A stretch of DNA of 64,000 bases from Phycisphaerae bacterium (GCA_026004655.1 BPJO01000008.1:62001-126000), one strand, 5' to 3'; counted from the stretch's first letter, positions 7,592 to 26,329 are shown. Program-made: numbers and translations. Notes: generated from the sequence alone by a model not told the origin.

Positions 7592-8495
7592 TCATTGAAC
7601 CACGCCATGCACTCGCCGATCGAAAACTAAGGGTTCGCCTTGATCTAAGATGAGAAGGCGATACTCATAGCCCTGTTCAACTAGATCATTCCGGATTCGT
7701 ATAAACTCGTTGTAACTGTCCGGCCAGACCGCTAACCCGATATAATGACTGTCGGGAGACAGAGGCTTTGTCAATTTTTTTCGCCAATGCACGATTTGAT
7801 CTCGCGTATTAACCACCAATCCGATTTGCTTTTTTATCTCATCTACCGTGAGTTCGTTATCCAATAACGCTTTGTAATAACTCGACTTTACGGTCCTCGA
7901 AAAGCCATCCGACTCATACTCGAATGGTTCATAAACCTTACCACCGAGCAGTAAAACAGGTACTTCCATTTTGGAAGTAAGACGTGAAATAGGTAGACGT
8001 ACCTTTATCTCTTGTCGTTGTTGTCGCTGGGCAATTTCCGCTTTTTTTTCGTGTTAGTTCAGCGCGCAGGACCAGCAATTGTTCGGATATCTGGTGATAT
8101 TCATTTTTCAGCACGCTCTGCTTTTTCTGCTCTTCTGCAATAGCCGAATCGAACCTGGCAATTTGATTTTCAAGCTCATGGATCTCGCCCAAAAGTTCCG
8201 ATATATGCTTCAGATCTGCATCCGAGGCACCCATTGATTTTAAGAGCTGACGCTGATGCGAAACTAATTCAGACATGTGCTCGTCTTCGGCTGAAAGCTT
8301 GCGAACCTGACTTGCCACTTCTGCGTACTGCAAACTGGTCGATTCGACATCCCGGCGTAGTTGGGTGCCCTGTCCGACATTCCGTGAAAGAATACATACC
8401 AGCAATGCTAGAAAGATAATACCTCCGAATGTGTTGCAGATCGTATCGAGTAAAAGTCCTAAGCTGTCATTATGCTCGCGATTGCGCCTTCTCAT
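7592..8495 (-). CDS. ExbD-like stator protein 2, split by one extra A
   Basis: Last gene of the seven-gene operon. The N terminus is basic (MRRRNREHN) and is followed by one membrane helix starting LGLLLDTICNTFGGIIFLALLV, with an Asp at its mouth as in ExbD/TolR/MotB proton-path helices. A long coiled coil follows (about residues 45-140), then a compact C-terminal domain. The first frame shifts into a spurious Thr-rich tail at the A8 run (T8 on the plus strand, 8042-8049). Dropping one A restores RKKAEIAQRQQRQEIKVRLP and continues to 7592, giving about 300 residues. The ATG at 8495 overlaps the stop of the upstream gene as ATGA, which fixes the start. No peptidoglycan-binding OmpA domain is seen. 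Confidence 0.72.
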
Positions 8496-9298
8496 TTTTC
8501 TCTCTCTTGGTAAATCCTCTGCTCGTCTGTCAAAAGATCCCATCCGACATCAAAATCATTCTTCCTTACGTGTGTGATCAGTCTATTTGCAAGCTCGGTC
8601 GCATCGGAATGAACGTAAATCACAAAATACTCCTTTTGAGGGTCAAATAGACGAAAGATCTGATCGATTTTTTTCTCCACTCGTTGGGCACTGACCGATT
8701 GGATGATAGACAGCTCTCCTTGACTGCTCAGAACTCCGATAATCGCGTTATCATTTTTGCACTCAATGATGATAGGGTTCTTGGTTGAAGGGCCGGGCAA
8801 TAATTTGACGGTTGGAACTTTGCTCAACTGAAGCAGCTGAAGATCTGCCTCATGATTTTGGGCTTCAACCGCTGCATGCTCGTTGACAATCTGATCGAGC
8901 TGCTTTTGGGATGCGTCAAGCTCATTCAGCTCCCCTGCAAGTTGTGTCTGACGTATATGTAGAAGTTGCTTCAGTGTAGACAGTTTATCCGACAATTCTT
9001 TAAACCGAGTGACCTTGTCCTCAGAAGAGTTTTTTCCGAGTACAGCCATCACTTGTTGCAGTGACTGTATTTGTTTTTTCTTCTGCTGAATAGAAGAGGA
9101 AATGGCAGCCAACTCTGATTCAAGAACCCGAAGATCGTTAATCACAGGGGTATGAGAGGCGTTTTCAACTCGAGTCGGGTCAATGATGTCAACTGCCAGC
9201 ATTAGCGTTACCAGGATCAGAATTCCGGTCACACTGGTGACAATATCCTGAAAGCTGAAAAACGAGATGGGGACTGAACTTCCTGCTCGCCGACCCAC
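8492..9298 (-). CDS. ExbD-like stator protein 1 with coiled coil
   Basis: 268 residues. One N-terminal membrane helix (FQDIVTSVTGILILVTLMLAV) carries the acidic residue expected for the proton path of ExbD/TolR/MotB partners. A coiled coil spans about residues 50-140, and a globular C-terminal domain of about 100 residues includes a beta-rich stretch (EYFVIYVHSDATELANRLITHV). That domain resembles the small periplasmic domains of ExbD/TolR more than the OmpA-like domain of MotB; this is an inference. It begins 1 nt after the channel gene's stop and overlaps the next gene by 4 nt, so the three are co-translated. The two ExbD-like genes probably form a heteromeric stator with the channel protein. 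Confidence 0.75.
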   Translation of the reverse strand: MGRRAGSSVPISFFSFQDIVTSVTGILILVTLMLAVDIIDPTRVENASHTPVINDLRVLESELAAISSSIQQKKKQIQSLQQVMAVLGKNSSEDKVTRFKELSDKLSTLKQLLHIRQTQLAGELNELDASQKQLDQIVNEHAAVEAQNHEADLQLLQLSKVPTVKLLPGPSTKNPIIIECKNDNAIIGVLSSQGELSIIQSVSAQRVEKKIDQIFRLFDPQKEYFVIYVHSDATELANRLITHVRKNDFDVGWDLLTDEQRIYQEREK

Positions 9299-9299
9299 G

Positions 9300-10157
9300 T
9301 CAACCTCCTCGTTCCAACATTGAAAGCTTTACTCGTCCCAAAATCTGGCGTTGGCAATATTCTTTGCAGTCGTCGAGCAACTGTTCTTCACTTCTGCGTA
9401 TAAGCGTAATCCACATTTGGATTGCCAAGGCTGCGACCAACGCAATCAGGGTGGTTTCGAACGCCGTCGCGAGTCCTGCTGTCACACCTTGCAGCGCCGG
9501 TTTGATCGTGGCGATATCCGCTGTTTCGGAAAGAACTGAACCGAACTTACTGATGGCTTGAGAAAGTCCTTGAACAGTACCTATGAACCCGAGTACCGGT
9601 ATGGCCCATACGAGCCCCTTGATCAGTCCATAACTCGATTCGATGGTATCTTCATCATTATCCGCTTGATCATGAAATATTTTGCTCAGATCAGCAACTC
9701 GACCAATATTTCGAAGATTACACAACCCGAGTTCGATTCGATTAAAAAGTACAAAATGCTGTGGATTGTCACAGATACCATGAATCCGATCCAAAACTTC
9801 GCTTACGGTACCGACTGAAAGTACGAATCCACCTTCTTTCGGAATCAATGGAACTTGTAATGCCTTTCGCTGAACTCGGATCTTATGCATCTTCACAAGA
9901 AGAATGTAAGCTGCCCAGATCGTAAAAAGGACTGTGACATACTGGACCGGCCCACGATCGGTCAACATGGCGACAAAAGGATGCGACCGGTTTGGAATAA
10001 GGATTCCGAAAAGCCCAGCCGTGGTTATCAACGCCAGAAAAAAAGTCAGTGCCGCATTTGTATGAGTATACCGTCCCCCACGCACACCAAGTCTTTCTTC
10101 AATATCTGCTCTGGTCCATGAAAGACGAGATAATTCCTTGTCATTTGTCGAGGTCAT
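9300..10157 (-). CDS. MotA/TolQ/ExbB-type proton channel protein
   Basis: 285 residues. Hydrophobic segments lie near residues 33-50 and 68-88, and a pair in the C-terminal third. The family core is clear: VLGFIGTVQGLSQAI followed by a loop and ALQGVTAGLATAFETTLIALVAALAIQMW, matching the TolQ/ExbB/MotA pore helices. In known members five such subunits surround two ExbD/TolR/MotB helices and use proton flow to move the stator. The two genes just downstream encode such partners. It follows the GYF-like membrane gene after 25 nt. Unlike ZorA it has no very long cytoplasmic tail; here the neighbouring 982-residue coiled-coil protein might serve that role, which is conjecture. Confidence 0.85.
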   Translation of the reverse strand: MTSTNDKELSRLSWTRADIEERLGVRGGRYTHTNAALTFFLALITTAGLFGILIPNRSHPFVAMLTDRGPVQYVTVLFTIWAAYILLVKMHKIRVQRKALQVPLIPKEGGFVLSVGTVSEVLDRIHGICDNPQHFVLFNRIELGLCNLRNIGRVADLSKIFHDQADNDEDTIESSYGLIKGLVWAIPVLGFIGTVQGLSQAISKFGSVLSETADIATIKPALQGVTAGLATAFETTLIALVAALAIQMWITLIRRSEEQLLDDCKEYCQRQILGRVKLSMLERGG

Positions 10158-10182
10158 AATCGTTACCTACTGCTTGAGCCCA

Positions 10183-11538
10183 TCATGCTTGCCGGAGGTT
10201 TTTAGATAGAAGTATTTCACAAAGTGACGTGCAAATTAACGTTATACACCCTCCCAAAATAATTAAGTTTTTAAGCACGAACTGGCTAGCGCTCTGCATG
10301 TCACGTATCTGGGTAAATACATTTTCGTCAGCCACAGCCAAGGTATAGACCGTGTAATTTATACCGCTCAGGAAGAGGAGTGCGGGAAAGAGGAATGAGC
10401 TAAGTGAAATCAGTGATGCCAATACAGTAAACTTCGCCAAAAGAACTCGCCGCATGAATCCACTAAGAACGGATAAAATCCCAGGAGTAATACCGACTAG
10501 AAGTACACTTATTATTACAATTAAAGTAATGAATGGTAAGTCTATTGAACTGAGATCATTTGCCTGGAAAAAAGCTGTGAGTATCGTTATTCCCAAAATC
10601 AAATAGGAAATGATACAAATTTTGCCAAATACGATGGAAACACCTCGATAGTCATTTATGTCGAACCTGTATCGGGCTACTTCGGTTATTGCTATCACCA
10701 AAGTAAAGATTGGTGACAGTATAGCCAATGATACCAGTATCGATACGAGATGAAATTTCAGATAGATGCTATAAGTGATCAACGTGATCAAGATCGGGAA
10801 AGCTGCCAATAAAAGGATTGGAATAGACCGACCTAATTTTTTGAAAGTGAAACTTAAAATAATCGTCGAAATCGCTGAAATATTGACATAGACTCCGAAC
10901 AAGAAACCCAAGCTCCCTTGATCATTCCACCAGAAAATTGTTTTTCCGCCGTTCCTCCAGAAAAGCGCATTGATCATGAGTAGCTGTAGCAATCCGACGA
11001 TCAACCCCGACAAGAACGCAATATCCTGAATGTACCGGGTCAATATATCGGATAGTCTATATCCTTTATGTTCATGCGGTTCTGCCAAGTTCTCCGCAGC
11101 AACTGGCTCTGGTTTAAAAATAGCTGCCAATAATGGAGCTTGGGCTGCTTCGTGAGCCGTTTCGTCTCCCTCAGCCCATACCAGATCTTTGGGACCAATG
11201 ACTCCCGATGAGGCTAGGCTACGAAGAACTGACGCCTCTAGAGGTCCTACGCTTTTTCCGTTCCTTGCGTAAAAGTATCGTGGACCGACCGAACCTGGAA
11301 ATGTAGCAGGATTGCCGGATCCTGATGAATCCGTCTGTTGATGGGATGCTCGCGAAGGCAACGAAATCTTCTCGAACAGGCCATCGACTGAGTCGATCGG
11401 TTTCCAGTTACGCTGGTCTTCGGACACCTCATCAAATCGCGATATGGCGCCTCGAGTAGAAAGTTTCTTCAGCACTTCAAGCGTAAAAGGTCCTGACACG
11501 TGACCTCTGGATCTGACAAAATACTTTGATACCTTCAT
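10183..11538 (-). CDS. Double GYF-like domain, multi-pass membrane protein
   Basis: 451 residues. Two N-terminal GYF_2/DUF4339-like modules are seen: KYFVRSRGHVSGPFTLEVLKKL (residues 5-26) and RYFYARNGKSVGPLEASVLRSL (about residues 87-108), each with the Y-x2-R/N-G-x-x-GP pattern and a following 'W' segment. The C-terminal two thirds is very hydrophobic, with about eight membrane helices from residue 165 on. GYF-like modules bind proline-rich peptides in eukaryotes; in bacteria they commonly sit on membrane proteins of unknown role. The start overlaps the previous gene's stop by 4 nt (11535-11538). It probably anchors or senses for the operon's complex, which is inference. Confidence 0.7.
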   Translation of the reverse strand: MKVSKYFVRSRGHVSGPFTLEVLKKLSTRGAISRFDEVSEDQRNWKPIDSVDGLFEKISLPSRASHQQTDSSGSGNPATFPGSVGPRYFYARNGKSVGPLEASVLRSLASSGVIGPKDLVWAEGDETAHEAAQAPLLAAIFKPEPVAAENLAEPHEHKGYRLSDILTRYIQDIAFLSGLIVGLLQLLMINALFWRNGGKTIFWWNDQGSLGFLFGVYVNISAISTIILSFTFKKLGRSIPILLLAAFPILITLITYSIYLKFHLVSILVSLAILSPIFTLVIAITEVARYRFDINDYRGVSIVFGKICIISYLILGITILTAFFQANDLSSIDLPFITLIVIISVLLVGITPGILSVLSGFMRRVLLAKFTVLASLISLSSFLFPALLFLSGINYTVYTLAVADENVFTQIRDMQSASQFVLKNLIILGGCITLICTSLCEILLSKNLRQA

Positions 11539-14483
11539 TCGGGACTCCTGATTTGATCTTCAGCGTGATTCATCGGGTGCGTAACGAATACCATGCAACC
11601 GTCGGTCAAGAGACTTGAGTTGTTCGTTATTTGAGGTGTTCCCTTGATGATTTTACCTAGCTCAAGCCATACGGGCGTTCCGTTCGTGTCAACTACGACT
11701 GTGTAGATGTCACCATTTTCGACCGTGTTCTTCAGACGTACACTGGAACCTGCGCGATTCGTAAAAAGCACTCCCCGTTTGATGACTCGGATGGAATTCT
11801 GCATGTAATTCAAAAACCAAGAGTCCTGAGATTCTGTGAATATTTGGGGAAGATTTTTTGCTTCCTTGAGCAACTCAATACAGATTTTTCTTTTTTCGGC
11901 TGCATTGGTATTTGTCGGATTCATCCACGCCACATTGGTGAGATTATGCTCAGATATCTTTGTCAATAACATTCTCAGATCAGATGAAACGGGCAAAACC
12001 TGTGAGGTAACGTGAGACTCTATCAGCAGTTGTAATAGAATTGTTCGTATGATCGGGTCGACCGAATCGGCTGAGAGAATTTTTCTGGCCAGTCTCGGAT
12101 AAAAGGTATGCCAGTTGTCCAAACTTGTTTGATTGATTTCCTGAATTAGGGAGTTGGCCAATATGCTCTGTTCCGATTTTTCTCCGAATGAATCTTTTCC
12201 AGCAATAATCCTGGCTGTATCGAGAGTCATTTCCTTTTTGAGTGGTTGGTTCGAATCGAGCGTTTCCGCCTCGATGTAGTTCACACGAAGGGAAATGACC
12301 TTATCGTTTATTCGGATTGGTATAATATCATCTGAATTCGCCACATAGTACGTCCCTTCCTTTGTTTTTAGCTGAAGCCAACGGCTCATCGGATTGCTCT
12401 GTAGGATCCGAACGAATGATCGGCGTAAACTCGATGATGGATTGGCGATAGAATCGATTTTATTGATGTATTCGAATACCACTTTCGCTTGGGATTGGAG
12501 TACTCCCCGGGAATTTCGAACAATCCAATTGGAAAGATCTTGGCGTGCCTGTATGAGCGCCATCGGATTTCTCTGCCTCGATTCGATCGATGTCGCGATC
12601 CGAGTACAAATATCCGAAAATTGCTCCACCGTCTGCCAATGAGGATATAGTTTGGCGGTCTCTGCCCAAACGATAGCACGTGCCTCGTCATCTATCGTCT
12701 TCCCAGACTTTATGAGCTGTTCTGCAAACTGACTGGCGGTCTGCGTCGCGTCTACCAGATCCTGTATAGTTTGAGAATACCGTTTTCTGCGTTGAATTTT
12801 TGTATGAACAGAATCGATTCGATCCTTCAATAAATTGATATTTACTCCGAACTCGGGAGGTAAAGAAGCTTCATTTAAATCAAGCAATAATCTTTGGGCT
12901 TCCGCAGAAGAACGATCCGCTGCTTCAAGATCATCCTCGGCAAATGATCCTTCGGCCGAAGTCACCAACTTATTCAAGGTAGTAATTACCTGATTCGCCT
13001 TTTCAATTTCAGCCTTTTGTTTCGCTAGCAGAAGGTCGGAATGCACCTCTTTGAGTTTCAAAAGGTTGAGTTTTTCATCGTTTGTTTTCGCCAAACTGTT
13101 GACCTTTGAAAAATCGACTTTGGTATTCTTGCTTTCAATCTCGGCAGTAATTCGCTTTATTTCTTCAGCAAACTGTTGAGTTCGTTTAAGTTCCTTCTCG
13201 TTTGCATCTGTTAACTGTTTTGCCGCCGTGACGATTTCCGGCATGTCTTGGTATCCCAAACTTTTTGCCATCTCGAGAACGGCTAAGGCTTCTGGCAGTT
13301 TCTCGGTTACTGTCAGCTCTGTGATTTGTCTTGCCAAGCGGTTCGCTTCTTGACGGTCATATATGTATTTTCCAACGAATGCCACCAAAGCAATCACAGC
13401 AACCGCTGCCAAACCAGCCATCAGTATGTTCCGTCTCTTGCGACGAAGGATGGTTAGTTCATGTTGATGTATGACATTGTGATAATTGCGCTCCAGCTCC
13501 TCAGGGATAGGGAACCCGGTATTTCGCAGAGAGTACATCATTTCTCGAAGCTTTTCCGATTCCATGGAGGAATCCTTCAACGCATTTTGAAGATATTCAC
13601 AATCGGATTCGAATTGGCGCCATGCGTTTCGTTTCTTACGCTCTTCCTCCACCCAGGATTGAATAGGACCTACAGCCTCTTCCAGATCATGAGGAACTGT
13701 CAGATTATTGGCTGAGACAATTGCAAACCACTGATCCATTAAGACGGATGTTTCGTCGAACATCATGGCGCTGTAAGCATCACTTAAATCCGGCAATAGC
13801 TGCTTCAGTGATTCGATCGCTTTATGCTTTCGATAGTCATCTACGATCTTTTGAACTGTTTGCTTTAGATCCTCTGGAAACGTGACACTCCATTGTGTTG
13901 TCTGAATTTCCTGCTCGATGGCTTCGATCCGCAAAAAGTTGGTGGTCTTCGCGGCCTCGGCGAGTTCTGATCTCAATTGCAGGATTCGAACTTTTTCCAG
14001 CTCTACAAGATCCTGTTTCCAGAAGACCGTCATAGGATCAATCTTGATCAGCTCCTTGAGAATTTTTATCCGATCCCGGATTGGCGCTAGCGCTATTGCA
14101 GCGATTCGATGGAGTTGAAGGACTTGCGCAATTTTCCGGTAAGCACTGTAAGCTTCATTCAGTTCAGCTGCCAACTCAATAGAGACGCGTGTCGGCTGAG
14201 GCAATTGATGCATCGCACAGATCGACTCCCATAACGGGAATTCGGGGAAATCTGCTACAGAAACCATATCAAGCAGCGCAGGTGTCTTCTCGGCCTCGAA
14301 AATTGCTTCTGACCTCAGTCCCCTGCGTAATAAGTCCGAACAACGAATAAGTCGTACGTTGATATTGTCACACAGCGTAGCGTAGCGTGCCGCCCAGTCA
14401 GTTAACTGAGGGAAATGATTCTGATCTGCCTTTTTACAGAACTCCCGTATATTGCCGACCAAATGCCGATAACTCGTGGTCAT
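11535..14483 (-). CDS. Large single-pass membrane protein with long helical arms
   Basis: 982 residues. The N-terminal about 350 residues are helical and lack a signal peptide, so they are probably cytoplasmic. One membrane helix (NILMAGLAAVAVIALVAFVG) lies near residue 352. After it comes a long coiled-coil region (about residues 375-560, rich in E, K, Q and A, with a DANEKELKRTQQFAEEIKRI-like heptad pattern), and then a globular end with beta-rich character. No enzymatic motif is evident and the family is not recognised. It starts 1 nt after the GAP1-like gene and overlaps the next gene by 4 nt. Its size and two-sided layout suit a scaffold linking the GTPase side to the channel side; this is inference. 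Confidence 0.7.
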   Translation of the reverse strand: MTTSYRHLVGNIREFCKKADQNHFPQLTDWAARYATLCDNINVRLIRCSDLLRRGLRSEAIFEAEKTPALLDMVSVADFPEFPLWESICAMHQLPQPTRVSIELAAELNEAYSAYRKIAQVLQLHRIAAIALAPIRDRIKILKELIKIDPMTVFWKQDLVELEKVRILQLRSELAEAAKTTNFLRIEAIEQEIQTTQWSVTFPEDLKQTVQKIVDDYRKHKAIESLKQLLPDLSDAYSAMMFDETSVLMDQWFAIVSANNLTVPHDLEEAVGPIQSWVEEERKKRNAWRQFESDCEYLQNALKDSSMESEKLREMMYSLRNTGFPIPEELERNYHNVIHQHELTILRRKRRNILMAGLAAVAVIALVAFVGKYIYDRQEANRLARQITELTVTEKLPEALAVLEMAKSLGYQDMPEIVTAAKQLTDANEKELKRTQQFAEEIKRITAEIESKNTKVDFSKVNSLAKTNDEKLNLLKLKEVHSDLLLAKQKAEIEKANQVITTLNKLVTSAEGSFAEDDLEAADRSSAEAQRLLLDLNEASLPPEFGVNINLLKDRIDSVHTKIQRRKRYSQTIQDLVDATQTASQFAEQLIKSGKTIDDEARAIVWAETAKLYPHWQTVEQFSDICTRIATSIESRQRNPMALIQARQDLSNWIVRNSRGVLQSQAKVVFEYINKIDSIANPSSSLRRSFVRILQSNPMSRWLQLKTKEGTYYVANSDDIIPIRINDKVISLRVNYIEAETLDSNQPLKKEMTLDTARIIAGKDSFGEKSEQSILANSLIQEINQTSLDNWHTFYPRLARKILSADSVDPIIRTILLQLLIESHVTSQVLPVSSDLRMLLTKISEHNLTNVAWMNPTNTNAAEKRKICIELLKEAKNLPQIFTESQDSWFLNYMQNSIRVIKRGVLFTNRAGSSVRLKNTVENGDIYTVVVDTNGTPVWLELGKIIKGTPQITNNSSLLTDGCMVFVTHPMNHAEDQIRSPE

Positions 14484-14484
14484 A

Positions 14485-16914
14485 TTACTTTCCCGTTATG
14501 AGTTCAAAGATCTGGTAAATCGCTCCGTTCGGGAATCGCACAGGAACCCAAACAATCCCAATATCACGGAATGCGTCCAGGTGGTTGCCTTGAATTAATT
14601 TCTCGAGATTCTGGTTGAGCTGCTTGATGGGTTCCTGAAGACTACTTTTCGTGTCTTGGCTGGGAGAGTTTTGTTTGTTGTTGGTGATTTCCGTGATTAG
14701 GCGCTGTAATTGTTTCGCCAATTCGTCAATTTTTTTGATAATTTCCTCTTGGGTTTCTAGTGTCTGGATTTTGTGCTTCCAGTTGCTTTGGAGCTGATAT
14801 GATTTTTGATCATCTGCTCCGATCTCTACATGAAATTCCTCGGAGTGTTCCTCCGGGGATGTCTTTTTTGTCGTAGGACAACGTTTGAACAGCAACTGAT
14901 TTTTTGACGAATGCACAGACCACTTTGAAGCCGATATCTGTGAAAGCTGAAGGGGAGAAAGCTCATCAGAAGTGGGTTTGATCCCCAGAGGAAGCTCTAG
15001 GGTTACCTTATCTTGTTTATCGAGTTGCCATTTCTGCCTTTTTGGACGGCAGAACTGTATGACTTGGTCTTTTTCTACACTGATTGCAGCCGTTTTAATG
15101 GCTTGGTATGCCCATATCTGAATGTCTTTTTCTCTCAATTTCACGAAATAATCCGTGAACGTACAGGACCATTTTTTTCCGCCTTCATAAGTCAGACGAA
15201 AAATCTCTTTATCCGAACTGGTTTCGAACGCACTAGCCGATGAATGCGTCACTGATAATGAAGATTCTTGCCAGATAATCTTCAACCGATGAGTCCTATC
15301 GGGTGTTGATATCTCTTGCAGGTTGTTCAGAAATTTGGGTTCCAGTTTCTCGTAATCTGATAGTTTGGATAAATCGAACTCCGTATGGATCGTGATGGGG
15401 TCATCAGGATGGATCGTCTCGAGTGAATCGGGAATTGGAACGATCAAGATGCCGAGTGAATCGATACTAATATTCTTTTCCGACTTTCCGGATATTCCAG
15501 CTTCGTTTATCGAGGAGGTTTCAGGACCGGCTGGGTCGATTTTCGATGTCTGGGTAGACAGACTATCCGGTACAGGATTAGCACGATTGATCGGTTCGGG
15601 TTCGTTCGCCGGTTTTTCGTCTTGGATTGAGATAGCTTTTTCTAGCAAAGCTTTATTTTTTGATAATTCTTTGTTGAGCTTTTCGAGGTCGTCTTTTACA
15701 GTTTTTAACTCATTTCGTGTTGCATCGTGTTTTTCGATTTCTTCCTGATACTTTTGCTTGTAATCCTCGGATTCCGCCGGGCCTGAGGTAGGTATCGATG
15801 TTGGTTGAGTAATTTGGGCTGTTTTTTCACCCGTGCGAAAAGCCTGAATCCATACCAGAACACCCCCCGCCACAACAATCGGCCATAAAGCAGCAAGAAT
15901 CCAAAAGACCGGAGCTGGTCGTGAAGAAGAGGTTGAGATCTTTTCGTATTGTCTTGTTTTTGGTGGCTTTGTAATACTCTTTGGATATCCTTCTGGGTGC
16001 AGGATTTCGTACGTCTCCGCTGGATCCCGTGTAAAGACCGGTTTGATTTCTGAGTAGCCCATCCTAGTTGGCATGGGCGTGATGGTTTTCTCCTGCGGTG
16101 GTTTTTGATCGTTCAGAATTCCGGTACGTGCAGCATCGATCATACCACCGGATTGATTCAGTGATCGTGGTTGGGTCAGATCAATGACGAGTGCGGAACG
16201 CACACTTGTGATCTTAGAGGCCATTGTTGTTCCGCTAATGACACATCGCCAGGCACAACGAACGTCACTAGCAAGATCGGTCGCGTAATAAGTGGAGAAT
16301 GTCGCTTGCCAACGCTGATTGATCGGGAGTAAAGCGATTGCCTCTCTAAAAAGAGGGAGCATGTCGATTCCATGGGGAATGATGAGATAAACGATCTTCG
16401 ACGGATCGGTAATCAAGGTATCAGCCAAGAGACCGGCCCATCCTGCGTCCCCTGCGATTTTCGCCCAATTTTGGCAAATCGTGGGTGCTAGATCACCCTC
16501 CGGAATGATTTTGCTCGGGGCAAGTAAGCTCGGTTCGCCTTGCCAGGATTCTGGCATGAAATTGGGTTGAGATATGAGCCAAGCTGGTCCGCCTTTGGGT
16601 AGTTCAGATGGTTCGATCGCAACGTGGTAGGCAATTTTGTTGGAACGATTCGTGTAATCCAGACCGGCAAAGGCAATCCGAGAAAGAATGTGCCAGTTTT
16701 TCCCTCCGATGGAGATTCTGTAATGACAGTAGTTGACCGGATTATCGGATGCGTTTGGATCGTGAGGTGGGAACAGTGGTCGGTAACCACTTAGAGACTC
16801 CAGTCGGTCCGCGAGCCAGGATGGTATTCCCCGACTGGCGGCTACGGTACAAAAACCTTTTGTTCCGGGTTTCAATCCCTTAGGCGCGGAAGTGAAGTAT
16901 AGTTCAAAACTCAT
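14485..16914 (-). CDS. GAP1-like GTPase-associated membrane protein
   Basis: 809 residues. The N-terminal about 260 residues (FELYFTSAPKGLKPGTKGFC, then SRIAFAGLDYTNRSNKIAYH, then WQATFSTYYATD) resemble the GAP1-N domain of 'GTPase-associated protein 1', a family defined by its co-occurrence with a GTPase gene in predicted conflict or signalling systems. A membrane helix (VFWILAALWPIVVAGGVLVW) lies near residue 330, then a coiled coil (about residues 365-420), a Ser/Pro-rich linker and a beta-rich C-terminal region with a second coiled coil near residue 720. It overlaps the GTPase gene by 4 nt (16911-16914). The domain assignment is from remembered motif patterns and was not searched. Confidence 0.65.
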   Translation of the reverse strand: MSFELYFTSAPKGLKPGTKGFCTVAASRGIPSWLADRLESLSGYRPLFPPHDPNASDNPVNYCHYRISIGGKNWHILSRIAFAGLDYTNRSNKIAYHVAIEPSELPKGGPAWLISQPNFMPESWQGEPSLLAPSKIIPEGDLAPTICQNWAKIAGDAGWAGLLADTLITDPSKIVYLIIPHGIDMLPLFREAIALLPINQRWQATFSTYYATDLASDVRCAWRCVISGTTMASKITSVRSALVIDLTQPRSLNQSGGMIDAARTGILNDQKPPQEKTITPMPTRMGYSEIKPVFTRDPAETYEILHPEGYPKSITKPPKTRQYEKISTSSSRPAPVFWILAALWPIVVAGGVLVWIQAFRTGEKTAQITQPTSIPTSGPAESEDYKQKYQEEIEKHDATRNELKTVKDDLEKLNKELSKNKALLEKAISIQDEKPANEPEPINRANPVPDSLSTQTSKIDPAGPETSSINEAGISGKSEKNISIDSLGILIVPIPDSLETIHPDDPITIHTEFDLSKLSDYEKLEPKFLNNLQEISTPDRTHRLKIIWQESSLSVTHSSASAFETSSDKEIFRLTYEGGKKWSCTFTDYFVKLREKDIQIWAYQAIKTAAISVEKDQVIQFCRPKRQKWQLDKQDKVTLELPLGIKPTSDELSPLQLSQISASKWSVHSSKNQLLFKRCPTTKKTSPEEHSEEFHVEIGADDQKSYQLQSNWKHKIQTLETQEEIIKKIDELAKQLQRLITEITNNKQNSPSQDTKSSLQEPIKQLNQNLEKLIQGNHLDAFRDIGIVWVPVRFPNGAIYQIFELITGK

Positions 16915-18440
16915 TGTCTGGATCTACCTTCGTTGGGTTGTTTTTGATTTAAAGAAAATACAAGGTCGATTGACATTCGGGCCAGCGCGTACATGAAAGG
17001 AACGGCCACCCATTGGGGCTTCAGATGACGTGGACGGAGCCCAAATATCTGACCGGACTCGTCTATTTCAGGTGAACAACCTGTTGCACTGCAGGGAATG
17101 TAAATAACCGTTTCACAAAAATCTTCGGCTGCGAAAACCAGATCCGGGACTGTGTTCCAGAGCAAGTGACGGACTTTATTGGAAATGAACTCGACCTTCT
17201 CCGTGTCCACGAGATGAGTTTGGCCTGATGACGAAACGATGTACGGTTCATCTCCTAGTCGGACATCCAGTAATGAAGCCCAGACGTCGTATTTGGGAAT
17301 AATAACGATCAAAGGTACTTTGTGCTTTTGTGTCGGGGATAAACCCAGTGATTTTCGAACACGATGCGATGCTTCAGTTAGCGTAACTTCTTGTCTGGAT
17401 ACGATCGTATCTTTTTGAAGTTGAGGGTCCTTGCTAAAACCGAGGCATCGTTGTCTGAACCGAGGATCCTGGGTCGGATCATACATGAACATCAATATCC
17501 TGGATCGGGCCAAGTGGTGAGTGACCATCGATCCTGCGTTATCCGATCCGGGAAGAAAATGCTCCCCTGCGTTATCGTACATGCAAATCACGCGTGAGAT
17601 CTGTTTCGCCTGCTGGTAGTGCAAGTGTTCGGGCAAGGGTCTTATGGAAAACAAAAACGGACGAGGTAAATGTACCGTCTGTTCTCCGAGCCTAATTTGA
17701 TCATAAAGCTCCCCTTCTGTTTCGGTTTTTCGTATGGCTACAAGAGCGTCCGGATCCGGGGCTAAGAAAAGCGTTTCTTCGTATTCGTTCAAACTCCGGT
17801 TGCTCACGGTGTCGGCATCAGCAAATGACAGTCCGAACTGGTTCGGAAGTATTTGCCGAAGTTGCCAAACCATGGAAGTCAAAAAGTATGATTTTCCGCT
17901 CGAAGGCACTCCGATGATGGAGGCAAAAAGTAAATCCATCTCAATGGCATGTCGGGGCACGGAAAGATGACATTTCGGACAAGCCATTGTTTGACAAACA
18001 CTCCCGCGTGCGTCGATGGCATGCCCTTGAGGCGTGAAACGGGATGGAAGAAATCTCATCAAAGCTTCCGGACCCAGGACGGTATCTCCCAGCAATTCGA
18101 TGTGCTGAGCGACCCAAAGAACTGATTCTGGTGGGAACACGTACCAGCAATGGGGACAGATTACTTTTTCACGTAGGCCCCATCTTTTTTGCCACGACCC
18201 AAAGAATGAATCGGATTTTGGCTGTCGAAGTGACGCGGGCGAATCCGATGAGGTCTTAGGTAGGTTATGTTTGTTCTGGATTTGTGAATAACATTCCTCG
18301 CAGTAGTAACAGCCGGACGAGTCTTTTATTCGTGACGTTTTTGCCACATCCGTACCACAATACACACATCTTTTTTCAATGACCTTACTCATCCCAAAAC
18401 CTTTCACTCTCCATGATTTGACTGTATCGACATGGATCAT
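16911..18440 (-). CDS. Zinc-ribbon GTPase, first gene of the operon
   Basis: Up to 509 residues. The N terminus has a four-Cys unit CVYCG...CEEC (residues 25-52), then a second split ribbon CPHC...CPKC (about residues 95-157). A P-loop GVPSSGKS follows near residue 177, then a switch II-type DNAG in MYDNAGEHF, and PKYD in the place of the NKxD guanine-specificity motif. This order fits a TRAFAC-type GTPase, probably of the DO-GTPase group found with GAP1 proteins. No membrane helix is seen. Starts at 18440 (MIHVD) and 18392 (MSKVIEKRCVYCG) are both possible; the latter begins just before the zinc motif. It leads the operon, with the tRNA-Leu gene divergent upstream. Confidence 0.78.
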   Translation of the reverse strand: MIHVDTVKSWRVKGFGMSKVIEKRCVYCGTDVAKTSRIKDSSGCYYCEECYSQIQNKHNLPKTSSDSPASLRQPKSDSFFGSWQKRWGLREKVICPHCWYVFPPESVLWVAQHIELLGDTVLGPEALMRFLPSRFTPQGHAIDARGSVCQTMACPKCHLSVPRHAIEMDLLFASIIGVPSSGKSYFLTSMVWQLRQILPNQFGLSFADADTVSNRSLNEYEETLFLAPDPDALVAIRKTETEGELYDQIRLGEQTVHLPRPFLFSIRPLPEHLHYQQAKQISRVICMYDNAGEHFLPGSDNAGSMVTHHLARSRILMFMYDPTQDPRFRQRCLGFSKDPQLQKDTIVSRQEVTLTEASHRVRKSLGLSPTQKHKVPLIVIIPKYDVWASLLDVRLGDEPYIVSSSGQTHLVDTEKVEFISNKVRHLLWNTVPDLVFAAEDFCETVIYIPCSATGCSPEIDESGQIFGLRPRHLKPQWVAVPFMYALARMSIDLVFSLNQKQPNEGRSRQ

Positions 18441-18615: not shown

Positions 18616-18948
18616 CCGGGTATGACGGAATGGCAGACGTAGCGGACTCATCGACCGGTCCTAAACCTCAAGGTATGGATTCGGTCTGAGGGTCGCCGGA
18701 TCGGAAACGGTTCGGTTGTCAGGCGTAAATTCAGGAAACGCTCTGGGATAATTCCCGTGCCAATCCTGAGCGAAGCCCGCGGATGCGGGAACGTGCAGAG
18801 ACCATAATCGCCCACCTGTATTTCCGATAAGGAAAATGGTGAAGGGATGGTCCAGACCACAAACCCGAAAGGGACGGCGAAAGCCGCAGTGGTAGGTAAA
18901 ATCCGCTGCTCCGAAAGGGGCGTGTGGGTTCGAATCCCACTACCCGGA
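18616..18948 (+). tRNA. tRNA-Leu(UAA) interrupted by a group I intron
   Basis: The exons are 18616-18648 and 18897-18948. The acceptor pairs CCGGGTA with TACCCGG (7 bp), followed by discriminator A at 18948. The D arm is ACG/CGT around a GAATGGCAGA loop. The anticodon stem is GCGGA/TCCGC and the joined loop reads CTTAAAA, giving anticodon UAA. The long variable arm GCTCC-GAAA-GGGGC marks a class II tRNA, and the T arm is GTGGG-TTCGAAT-CCCAC. The 3' CCA is not encoded. The intron interrupts the loop between U33 and U34. Confidence 0.92.
18649..18896 (+). ncRNA. Group I intron, tRNA-type (IC3-like), 248 nt
   Basis: P1 forms between the 5' exon end GGACT (18644-18648) and the internal guide GGTCC (18657-18661), leaving the required U.G wobble at the splice site. 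The last intron base is G (18896), as needed for omega-G. P7 is seen as GACCAT (18800-18805) with ATGGTC (18847-18852). The intervening GGTGAAGGGATGGTCCAG is close to the core of the Azoarcus tRNA-Ile intron, as is AAATTC-GGAAACGCT upstream. There is no internal endonuclease gene. It should be self-splicing. Confidence 0.9.
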
Positions 18949-18977
18949 CTTTTTATTCCCCATTTTTCCGATCCTGT

Positions 18978-24930: not shown

Positions 24931-24952
24931 GGGTCAGAAAAGGATGTGTGGT

Positions 24953-26329
24953 ATGGTTCAAAACGGGATTAACCAGTTACAAGTTCTGGAATCACGGTGT
25001 TTAATGTCGGCCGGATCGTCAGGAAGTGACATCGTCCGCTTCGGAGACGGCCATCAGCTGATCCTCTACGGCACACGTCGGGATGATGTGATTCAACTGT
25101 ATTTCACGGGCGACACCTATCTGGTACGAGCCAATAACCAGCAGCCTTTGACTTTCACTCAGCCTTTTAATTCCGTTCGAATCATCGGGGGAAAAGGAAA
25201 CGACGTCATCAAAGTCGATGCTTCGGTCATGGTCCCGGCCTATTTGCACGGTGGTAACGGAAATGACACCCTCTGTGGTGGGAGTGGCCAGGATTTTCTC
25301 TACGGCGATCAAGGAATCGATCGGCTTTACGGAAATGCAGGGAACGACCAGATCATCACCATCGGGGGCGGAAATCGTGATTTGGTCACCGGGGGCAAAG
25401 GTCTGGATTCTTTCTGGATGGACTTATCTTCCAGGGAAAAACTCATCGACCCCTCCGCAGACGAATGGAAAGTCGGCTCGGTCAATCGTGTCAAAGGCTT
25501 TCAGTCTTCTTCTGCGACCAATGGACAAATCAATCAGTCGGTCAGCACTGAACTTCTTGGTCAACGGATCAACGACCCAACGTTAACCAATGGAACGTAT
25601 GTGTATGAGTCTTTTAATCGACATCCGTTGTTTTCGTCCCGAGGTCCGAGTATGGATGATGTGAAACAGGGTCAAATCGGTGATTGTTATTTCTTGGCCA
25701 CTCTGGCCGGGGCCGCCCATGTTTCACCGGATTCGATCCGATCGATGATCACCGACCTGGGCGACGGAACTTATGCGGTGAGGTTTGCGAATCCCGATAA
25801 TTCCTATCGGTTTTATCGGGTAGACAATGACCTGCCTGTGTCACGAGAAGGGAGCAACCGTCCCGTGTACGCCGGTTTGGGAAATGAGGACTGTCTGTGG
25901 GTCGCACTGGCGGAAAAAGCCTACACCTATCATCGTAACGGGTCCGGAAGTTACGAATCCATCCACGGGGGATGGATGAGTCAAGCGCTCACCGCGATCG
26001 GGGCCCGTCAGCAAGAGACTCTTTGGCGACAACAATCCGGAGGTGCCCAACCATTCATCCACTGGGTCGAACAACAACTGTCTGAGGGAAAAATCGTCAC
26101 CCTGGGCGTGCTGGATGCACAGGATGATTTAAATCTTGTCAGTGGACATGCTTACACCGTCGATTCGGTCAAAACCGACACGGACGGGTCTAAATATCTG
26201 ATTATCCGTAATCCGTGGGCGATCGACGGATACACCTGTACTGACCGTACCAACGACGGATACTTACGTCTGACACCGGATCAAGCCTATCGGGGGATCA
26301 ATGTTTTTGTCAGTGGTCGGGCGGCCTGA
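24953..26329 (+). CDS. Calpain-like Cys protease with RTX repeats and LEPR-type tag
   Basis: About 458 residues. The N terminus has VLESRCLMSA, the planctomycete LEPR-XLL-type motif. Then come haemolysin-type calcium-binding repeats (GGKGNDVI, GGNGNDTLCGGSGQDFLYG, GNAGNDQI; about residues 80-145). The C-terminal calpain (C2) domain has its Cys in QGQIGDCYFLATL (near residue 244), its His in GHAYTVDSV (near 397) and its Asn in IRNPWAID (near 418), so the triad is complete. RTX repeats and the tag suggest an exported, calcium-dependent protease. ATGs at 24944 and 24953 are possible; AAAGG lies at good distance from the second. Confidence 0.85.
   Translation: MVQNGINQLQVLESRCLMSAGSSGSDIVRFGDGHQLILYGTRRDDVIQLYFTGDTYLVRANNQQPLTFTQPFNSVRIIGGKGNDVIKVDASVMVPAYLHGGNGNDTLCGGSGQDFLYGDQGIDRLYGNAGNDQIITIGGGNRDLVTGGKGLDSFWMDLSSREKLIDPSADEWKVGSVNRVKGFQSSSATNGQINQSVSTELLGQRINDPTLTNGTYVYESFNRHPLFSSRGPSMDDVKQGQIGDCYFLATLAGAAHVSPDSIRSMITDLGDGTYAVRFANPDNSYRFYRVDNDLPVSREGSNRPVYAGLGNEDCLWVALAEKAYTYHRNGSGSYESIHGGWMSQALTAIGARQQETLWRQQSGGAQPFIHWVEQQLSEGKIVTLGVLDAQDDLNLVSGHAYTVDSVKTDTDGSKYLIIRNPWAIDGYTCTDRTNDGYLRLTPDQAYRGINVFVSGRAA

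Follow-up and report, generated by a model that had tools for sequence, protein, structure and literature searches.

A GTPase-GAP1-coiled-coil operon linked to an ExbB-type proton channel in Planctomycetota

Results

Organization of the operon

In the window, by which we mean the whole 64,000-nucleotide stretch of Phycisphaerae DNA that was analysed, seven genes on the minus strand occupy positions 7592-18440 with spacings of -4, +1, -4, +25, +1 and -5 nt. They encode, in order, a GTPase, a GAP1 protein, a coiled-coil protein (CC, 982 aa), a double-GYF protein, an ExbB-type channel subunit and two ExbD-like proteins, stators 1 and 2. An initial annotation of this DNA had described seven co-directional genes, all of which we found again on the same strand and at the same coordinates, and a Pfam search of the operon proteins matched its GAP1, GYF_2 and MotA_ExbB calls. 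A scan for promoters and terminators gave fewer matches than in shuffled sequence.

The first gene (16911..18440) encodes a soluble, DO-GTPase2-like protein of 509 residues with zinc ribbons, a P-loop (GVPSSGKS) and the motifs DNAG and PKYD. It matches DO-GTPase2 (PF19993) at 6.7e-5, under the Pfam cut-off, and better-matching relatives reach 1.4e-6 to 6.5e-6, at or close to the cut-off. Across 15 aligned sequences, little or no variation is seen in the P-loop, DNAG, K-x-D and CxxC...CxxC residues. Two zinc ribbons had been proposed, of which the second (C95, C98, C154, C157) is conserved whereas the first is not. The second gene (14485..16914) encodes an 809-residue protein with a GAP1-N2 domain (PF20013, 3.6e-27) and a GAP1-M domain (PF20014, 1e-9), both over the cut-off, one transmembrane (TM) segment at residues 336-354 and a C-terminal part rich in coiled coil. 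We stress that GAP1 stands for GTPase-associated protein 1, a name that carries no claim of GTPase-activating activity.

The 982-residue CC protein (11535..14483) has a helical N-terminal domain, long helices and a mixed beta/helical C-terminal domain. Its earlier description as a single-pass protein holds, as it contains exactly one hydrophobic segment (residues 353-371), conserved in 20 of the 21 relatives checked. Its predicted structure (pLDDT 84.5) found no useful match in a fold search against the PDB. GAP1 and CC share a topology: about 340 residues, then a single TM segment, then a long remainder. The fourth protein (10183..11538; 451 aa) matches GYF_2 in two stretches (Pfam, 2.4e-18) and has about eight predicted TM segments.

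Several observations concern the surroundings of this gene set. In the window, a tRNA-Leu(UAA) gene at 18616-18949 (+), missed by a default tRNA scan, carries a 248-nt group I intron at 18649-18896 (ARAGORN insertion 33/34; Rfam group I, E 1e-4); its exons are joined, with no intron, in relative G305, and relatives G297 and G314 match its 3' part. A cysteine protease of the calpain family, carrying an RTX calcium-binding repeat, is encoded at 24944-26329 (+). Beside the GTPase operon, nine related loci (e.g. L029:5439-6557) encode a von Willebrand A protein whose N-terminus bears a hydrophobic segment. Five same-family GTPases (L060, L067, L070, L073, L082) have no GAP1 gene recognised nearby, and the gene that follows the GTPase of L082 is VWA-like.

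The channel and its stators

The fifth gene (9300..10157) encodes an ExbB/TolQ/MotA-type proton-channel subunit of 285 residues, with four hydrophobic segments and a Pfam match to MotA_ExbB (3.7e-10). Visualizing the relatedness of such channels as a tree, we observed that the ExbBs of the motor operons form one clade of 28 sequences (100/99), 25 of which adjoin this GTPase; of the rest, one belongs to a genome whose GTPase lies on another contig and two to a single genus without a detectable GTPase. Because our ExbB profile (A2) was seeded from GTPase-linked loci, its genome counts are biased towards linkage. In one of the two genomes of this genus, a CC-like gene and ExbB-ExbD1-ExbD2 follow a histidine kinase (L131:8906-14883). 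Related ExbB-ExbD cassettes without the GTPase, mostly with two ExbD-like genes, occur at six further loci (L132-L136 and L138), and in some of these the ExbB has a zinc-ribbon-like N-terminus.

Among solved structures, the closest relative of the channel is TolQ (E 0.0026), and the channel's match to TolQ at E 3.5e-4 scores 20.4 bits against a curated cut-off of 221. A separate clade, with 25 of 28 members beside the GTPase, and a TolQ match so far under its cut-off rule out an ordinary Tol/Ton system, a match to which the initial annotation had named as a refutation.

That annotation had also called two ExbD-like stators. Each of them has a short N-terminus, an Asp that opens the sole TM segment and a helical spacer; in aligned relatives the motif is an invariant FQD in stator 1 and LLD or FLD in stator 2. 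Neither stator, however, matches Pfam ExbD; the call is upheld by the TM Asp motif and, for stator 1, by its predicted fold. The seventh gene is not a single ORF in the window. The model of stator 1 (8492..9298; 268 aa; mean pLDDT 79) runs from the TM helix through a helix of 107 residues to a C-terminal beta-beta-beta-alpha-beta-alpha-beta domain. This model aligns with E. coli TolR (5by4) at a TM-score by target of 0.54 and an rmsd of 3.2; since many proteins of similar topology rank higher, a TolR-like fold is supported, not proven. A PDB search with the stator alignment returned coiled-coil chance matches only.

The gene for stator 2 (7592..8496), a protein of ~300 aa in relatives, falls into two ORFs, 7938-8543 and 7592-7969, because a stretch of eight A (T8 on the plus strand) at 8042-8049 (-) holds one base too many. 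In all relatives the gene is intact, a single ORF of about 250-310 aa that spans both halves. With the gene interrupted, the window copy of the operon may be inactive or the assembly may be wrong. Two neighbouring gene pairs look frameshifted as well: 3415-4071/3977-6085, apparently one alpha-L-rhamnosidase gene, and 6088-6576/6527-7384, an uncharacterised gene. These breaks suggest indel errors in this stretch, and a dead gene is therefore no more likely than an assembly error.

Conservation and alternative partners

Of 294 Planctomycetota genomes surveyed, 22 contain GAP1-N2 and 16 the GTPase. Homologous operons, whose absence the initial annotation had named as a refutation, exist elsewhere: our neighbourhood survey found the motor operon order again in more than 20 independent loci across Planctomycetota. 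The order GTPase-GAP1-CC is fixed, and in most complete neighbourhoods it is followed by (GYF)-ExbB-ExbD1-ExbD2. Cultured strains in which the operon is complete include Botrimarina colliarenosi Pla108 (L063) and Rhodopirellula solitaria CA85 (L058).

A seed consisting of the GTPase only, with one genome per species, yielded 80 loci, 45 of which have at least 8.5 kb downstream and were considered informative. Counted by hand, the ExbB motor is present in 17 of the 45, a PilM-type set in 6 and a GYF-fused GspE/PilB-type ATPase in 4; the other 18, several of them close relatives of each other, contain none of these. The GTPase and GAP1 thus regularly occur without the channel (28 of 45), which the initial annotation had named as a refutation, and the motor is one of several partners and not a defining part. 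Chance falls far short of explaining the link between GTPase and motor, which is nevertheless optional. Two loci (L095, L125) were left out of the 17, since their ExbB genes lie upstream on the opposite strand and fall among unlinked families; both are still labelled motor in the GTPase tree.

Downstream of the core, Lentisphaerota have a gene for a PilM-like protein (PilM_2, 6e-16; Amuc_1101-family pilus protein, 3.6e-26; PDB PilM, 9e-11) and then two small proteins with only weak GspM/GspC-like matches, which from position and size we take as putative PilO and PilP. In these loci an FHA domain is part of the GTPase, and GAP1 is short (about 306 residues) and lacks a TM segment. Oligosphaera ethanolica is one bearer of the PilM-type variant. 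An FHA domain fused to this GTPase is found in Lentisphaerota, in Kiritimatiellota and in one planctomycete locus. The ATPase variant belongs to a clade made up of Planctomycetaceae and one MAG labelled Brocadiaceae; its CC protein is cut to about 377 residues, with the TM segment at its end, and its GYF is fused to the GspE/PilB-type ATPase (T2SSE, 2.3e-96). The single TM segment of GAP1 is conserved in both motor-type and ATPase-type loci.

A tree built from 95 GTPases places motor-linked loci on branches of every depth, ranging from the most divergent to shallow ones. The ATPase variant is a single nested clade (100/100), and the PilM variant lies inside one PVC clade (17 rows, 100/100). 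This distribution, in a tree without a root, suggests but does not prove that the motor is an old partner and that the other machines are later replacements. Pairwise distances of GTPase, GAP1 and CC co-vary, also after thinning. After thinning, the correlation of GAP1 with ExbB also holds (r 0.47, 0/2000 permutations), that of GTPase with ExbB is weak (r 0.30, 112/2000) and that of CC with ExbB is absent (r -0.19).

Discussion

A possible GTPase-linked machine of the cell envelope

A soluble GTPase, the topology of GAP1 and CC, a channel with four TM segments and two stators with one TM segment each point to a machine seated in the inner membrane, with its switch in the cytoplasm and long arms outside it. 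We give about even chances to the hypothesis that the operon encodes such an envelope machine under the control of a GTPase switch. In a possible cycle, the GTP-bound GTPase would dock at the membrane through GAP1 and CC, and docking would assemble or activate an ExbB-ExbD complex, probably of 5:2 stoichiometry. Proton flow would then move the stators, the parts of CC and stator beyond the membrane would pass force to the wall or the outer membrane, and GTP hydrolysis, perhaps aided by GAP1, would turn the machine off. Candidate outputs are adhesion, surface movement, secretion and envelope upkeep. The conserved operon, the dedicated ExbB clade and the membrane topology speak in favour of the proton-driven, GTPase-linked envelope machine that had been proposed earlier, but the motor is not an obligatory part.

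An antiphage or other conflict system, in which GTPase and GAP1 sense an invader and ExbB-ExbD acts as effector, for example by membrane depolarisation or in a Zorya-like manner, is to our minds unlikely. GAP1-N2 systems are classed as conflict systems in the text of Kaur et al. (2020; PMC7159879), Zorya defence employs a 5:2 ZorAB motor (PMC11890865), and the patchy spread of the GTPase in the phylum would suit such a role. Against it, the operon lies among housekeeping genes in the window (FtsK, argininosuccinate synthase, FtsH, ketoacyl synthase), the motor operon holds no nuclease or toxin gene, and the alternative partners of the GTPase core include pilus and secretion machines. With PADLOC, the operon proteins gave only coiled-coil matches and, to ZorA, a similarity of the kind shared by channels in general (E 4.4e-5), and 97 flanking ORFs of related loci gave few matches, mostly to families such as PD-T4-6 and kinases, which are not necessarily defence-specific. 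No defence island, a location that the initial annotation had proposed to check, was seen in either set of surroundings, and these lend a possible defence role no support.

Still less probable, in our estimate, is a constitutive, Tol-Pal-like maintenance motor whose GTPase serves the assembly or biogenesis of CC and does not switch anything on or off. TolQ as nearest solved channel relative, the predicted TolR-like stator fold, the long parts of CC and stator beyond the membrane and the CC-ExbB-ExbD unit found without the GTPase are all consistent with it; however, the operon is missing from most genomes of the phylum, unlike an essential Tol system, and Pfam finds no Pal, TolA or TolB in it. 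That a mobile ExbB-ExbD-ExbD cassette came to lie next to a GTPase system to which it is functionally unconnected is very improbable: GTPase-less cassettes do exist in the phylum and the ExbBs of L095 and L125 do group with unlinked families, but the genes of the operon overlap or nearly touch, their order is fixed over a deep tree and the ExbB clade is a dedicated one.

Returning to the GTPase-switched envelope machine, the occurrence of the same core with a PilM-type pilus complex or a GspE/PilB-type ATPase in relatives leads us to think that GTPase, GAP1 and CC are best seen as a putative controller with exchangeable output, by analogy functionally comparable to MglA and not homologous to it. 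Judged from sequence, the GTPase switch may serve quite generally to turn cell-envelope machines on and off. More broadly, we put forward, tentatively and at somewhat less than even chances, that the core is a general control module of the PVC superphylum acting on varied force-producing envelope machines; it would then parallel MglA polarity control independently and give GAP1-N2 a role outside defence. Speaking against the GTPase-switched envelope machine, 18 of the 45 informative loci lack all three machines in their vicinity, and the ExbB clade occurs in two genomes without a detectable GTPase, in one of which CC-ExbB-ExbD1-ExbD2 was read directly. The weak GTPase-ExbB and absent CC-ExbB correlations after thinning, the CC model without a useful PDB match and the interrupted stator 2 gene of the window also weigh against it.

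Gene context has been the ground for reading GAP1/DO-GTPase systems as conflict systems, and we found no experiments on them in the literature. That one core is tied to a proton motor in some loci, and to a pilus platform or a secretion-type ATPase in others, offers a direct and testable alternative, namely GTP-controlled envelope machines, in a bacterial group of unusual cell biology. Our analysis also defines a planctomycete ExbB motor clade with two coiled-coil stators, linked to this GTPase.

Comparison with known systems

With Zorya (PMC11890865) the operon shares a MotA/ExbB-type motor with a TM stator. Zorya is recognised by a ZorA with a long cytoplasmic tail, a ZorB with a peptidoglycan-binding domain and an effector gene; the 285-residue ExbB lacks the long C-terminal tail of ZorA, ZorA matches are weak and generic, and there is no effector gene, and we reject membership. 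With Tol-Pal and Ton it shares an ExbB/TolQ channel and a stator fold predicted to be TolR-like. Unlike in those systems, the two stators are coiled-coil proteins that leave Pfam ExbD unmatched, the ExbB clade is separate, and GTPase partners take the place of TolA or TonB, neither of which matched any operon protein in Pfam; the combination of TolQR or ExbBD with a TolA/TonB partner is thus absent.

The text of Kaur et al. describes DO-GTPase/GAP1-N2 systems, proposed to act in conflict, and a planctomycete link to double-GYF proteins with TM regions (PMC7159879). The operon resembles these systems in having GAP1-N2 and GAP1-M downstream of a zinc-ribbon DO-GTPase, a planctomycete double-GYF protein with a TM-rich region and membrane association. 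Two hallmarks of a GAP1-N2-type, GTPase-centric system are present, namely a GAP1 with N2 and M domains and an adjacent DO-GTPase with N-terminal zinc ribbons (the latter by a sub-cut-off PF19993 match, the G motifs and CxxC pairs); the FNIII-repeat component found no Pfam match in the seven window proteins. In contrast to the systems described in that text, the operon adds CC, the ExbB channel and two ExbD-like stators. The pairing of GAP1/GTPase with an ExbBD motor had been put forward as undescribed: the GTPase, GAP1 and double-GYF part is published, whereas the text of that paper, taken apart from its figure and supplements, names no ExbB, ExbD, MotA or proton channel. As that text is silent on the motor and we found no other report on GAP1-N2, the links to motor, pilus and ATPase look undescribed, within a partial coverage of the literature.

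The resemblance to MglA/Agl-Glt of Myxococcus xanthus lies in GTPase control, a bitopic membrane transducer, an FHA domain in the machine and a GTPase that also serves pili. Myxococcus GltJ has zinc-finger and GYF parts. MglA-GTP in Myxococcus stimulates the assembly of type IV pili and of the gliding machineries (PMC9481161), and AglRQS consists of one TolQ/ExbB and two TolR/ExbD proteins, with the FHA domain in the bitopic transducer GltG (PMC3169522). The window operon has the same composition of one TolQ/ExbB and two TolR/ExbD proteins, its stators being assigned by fold and motif and not by Pfam ExbD. Unlike in Agl-Glt, no Glt outer-membrane parts were seen in it, and in place of a Ras-like MglA with a Roadblock MglB there is a GTPase that matches DO-GTPase2, in an operon without a Roadblock protein. 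By analogy, the likeness to MglA is one of putative function and of layout, between a GTPase and partner that belong to different families.
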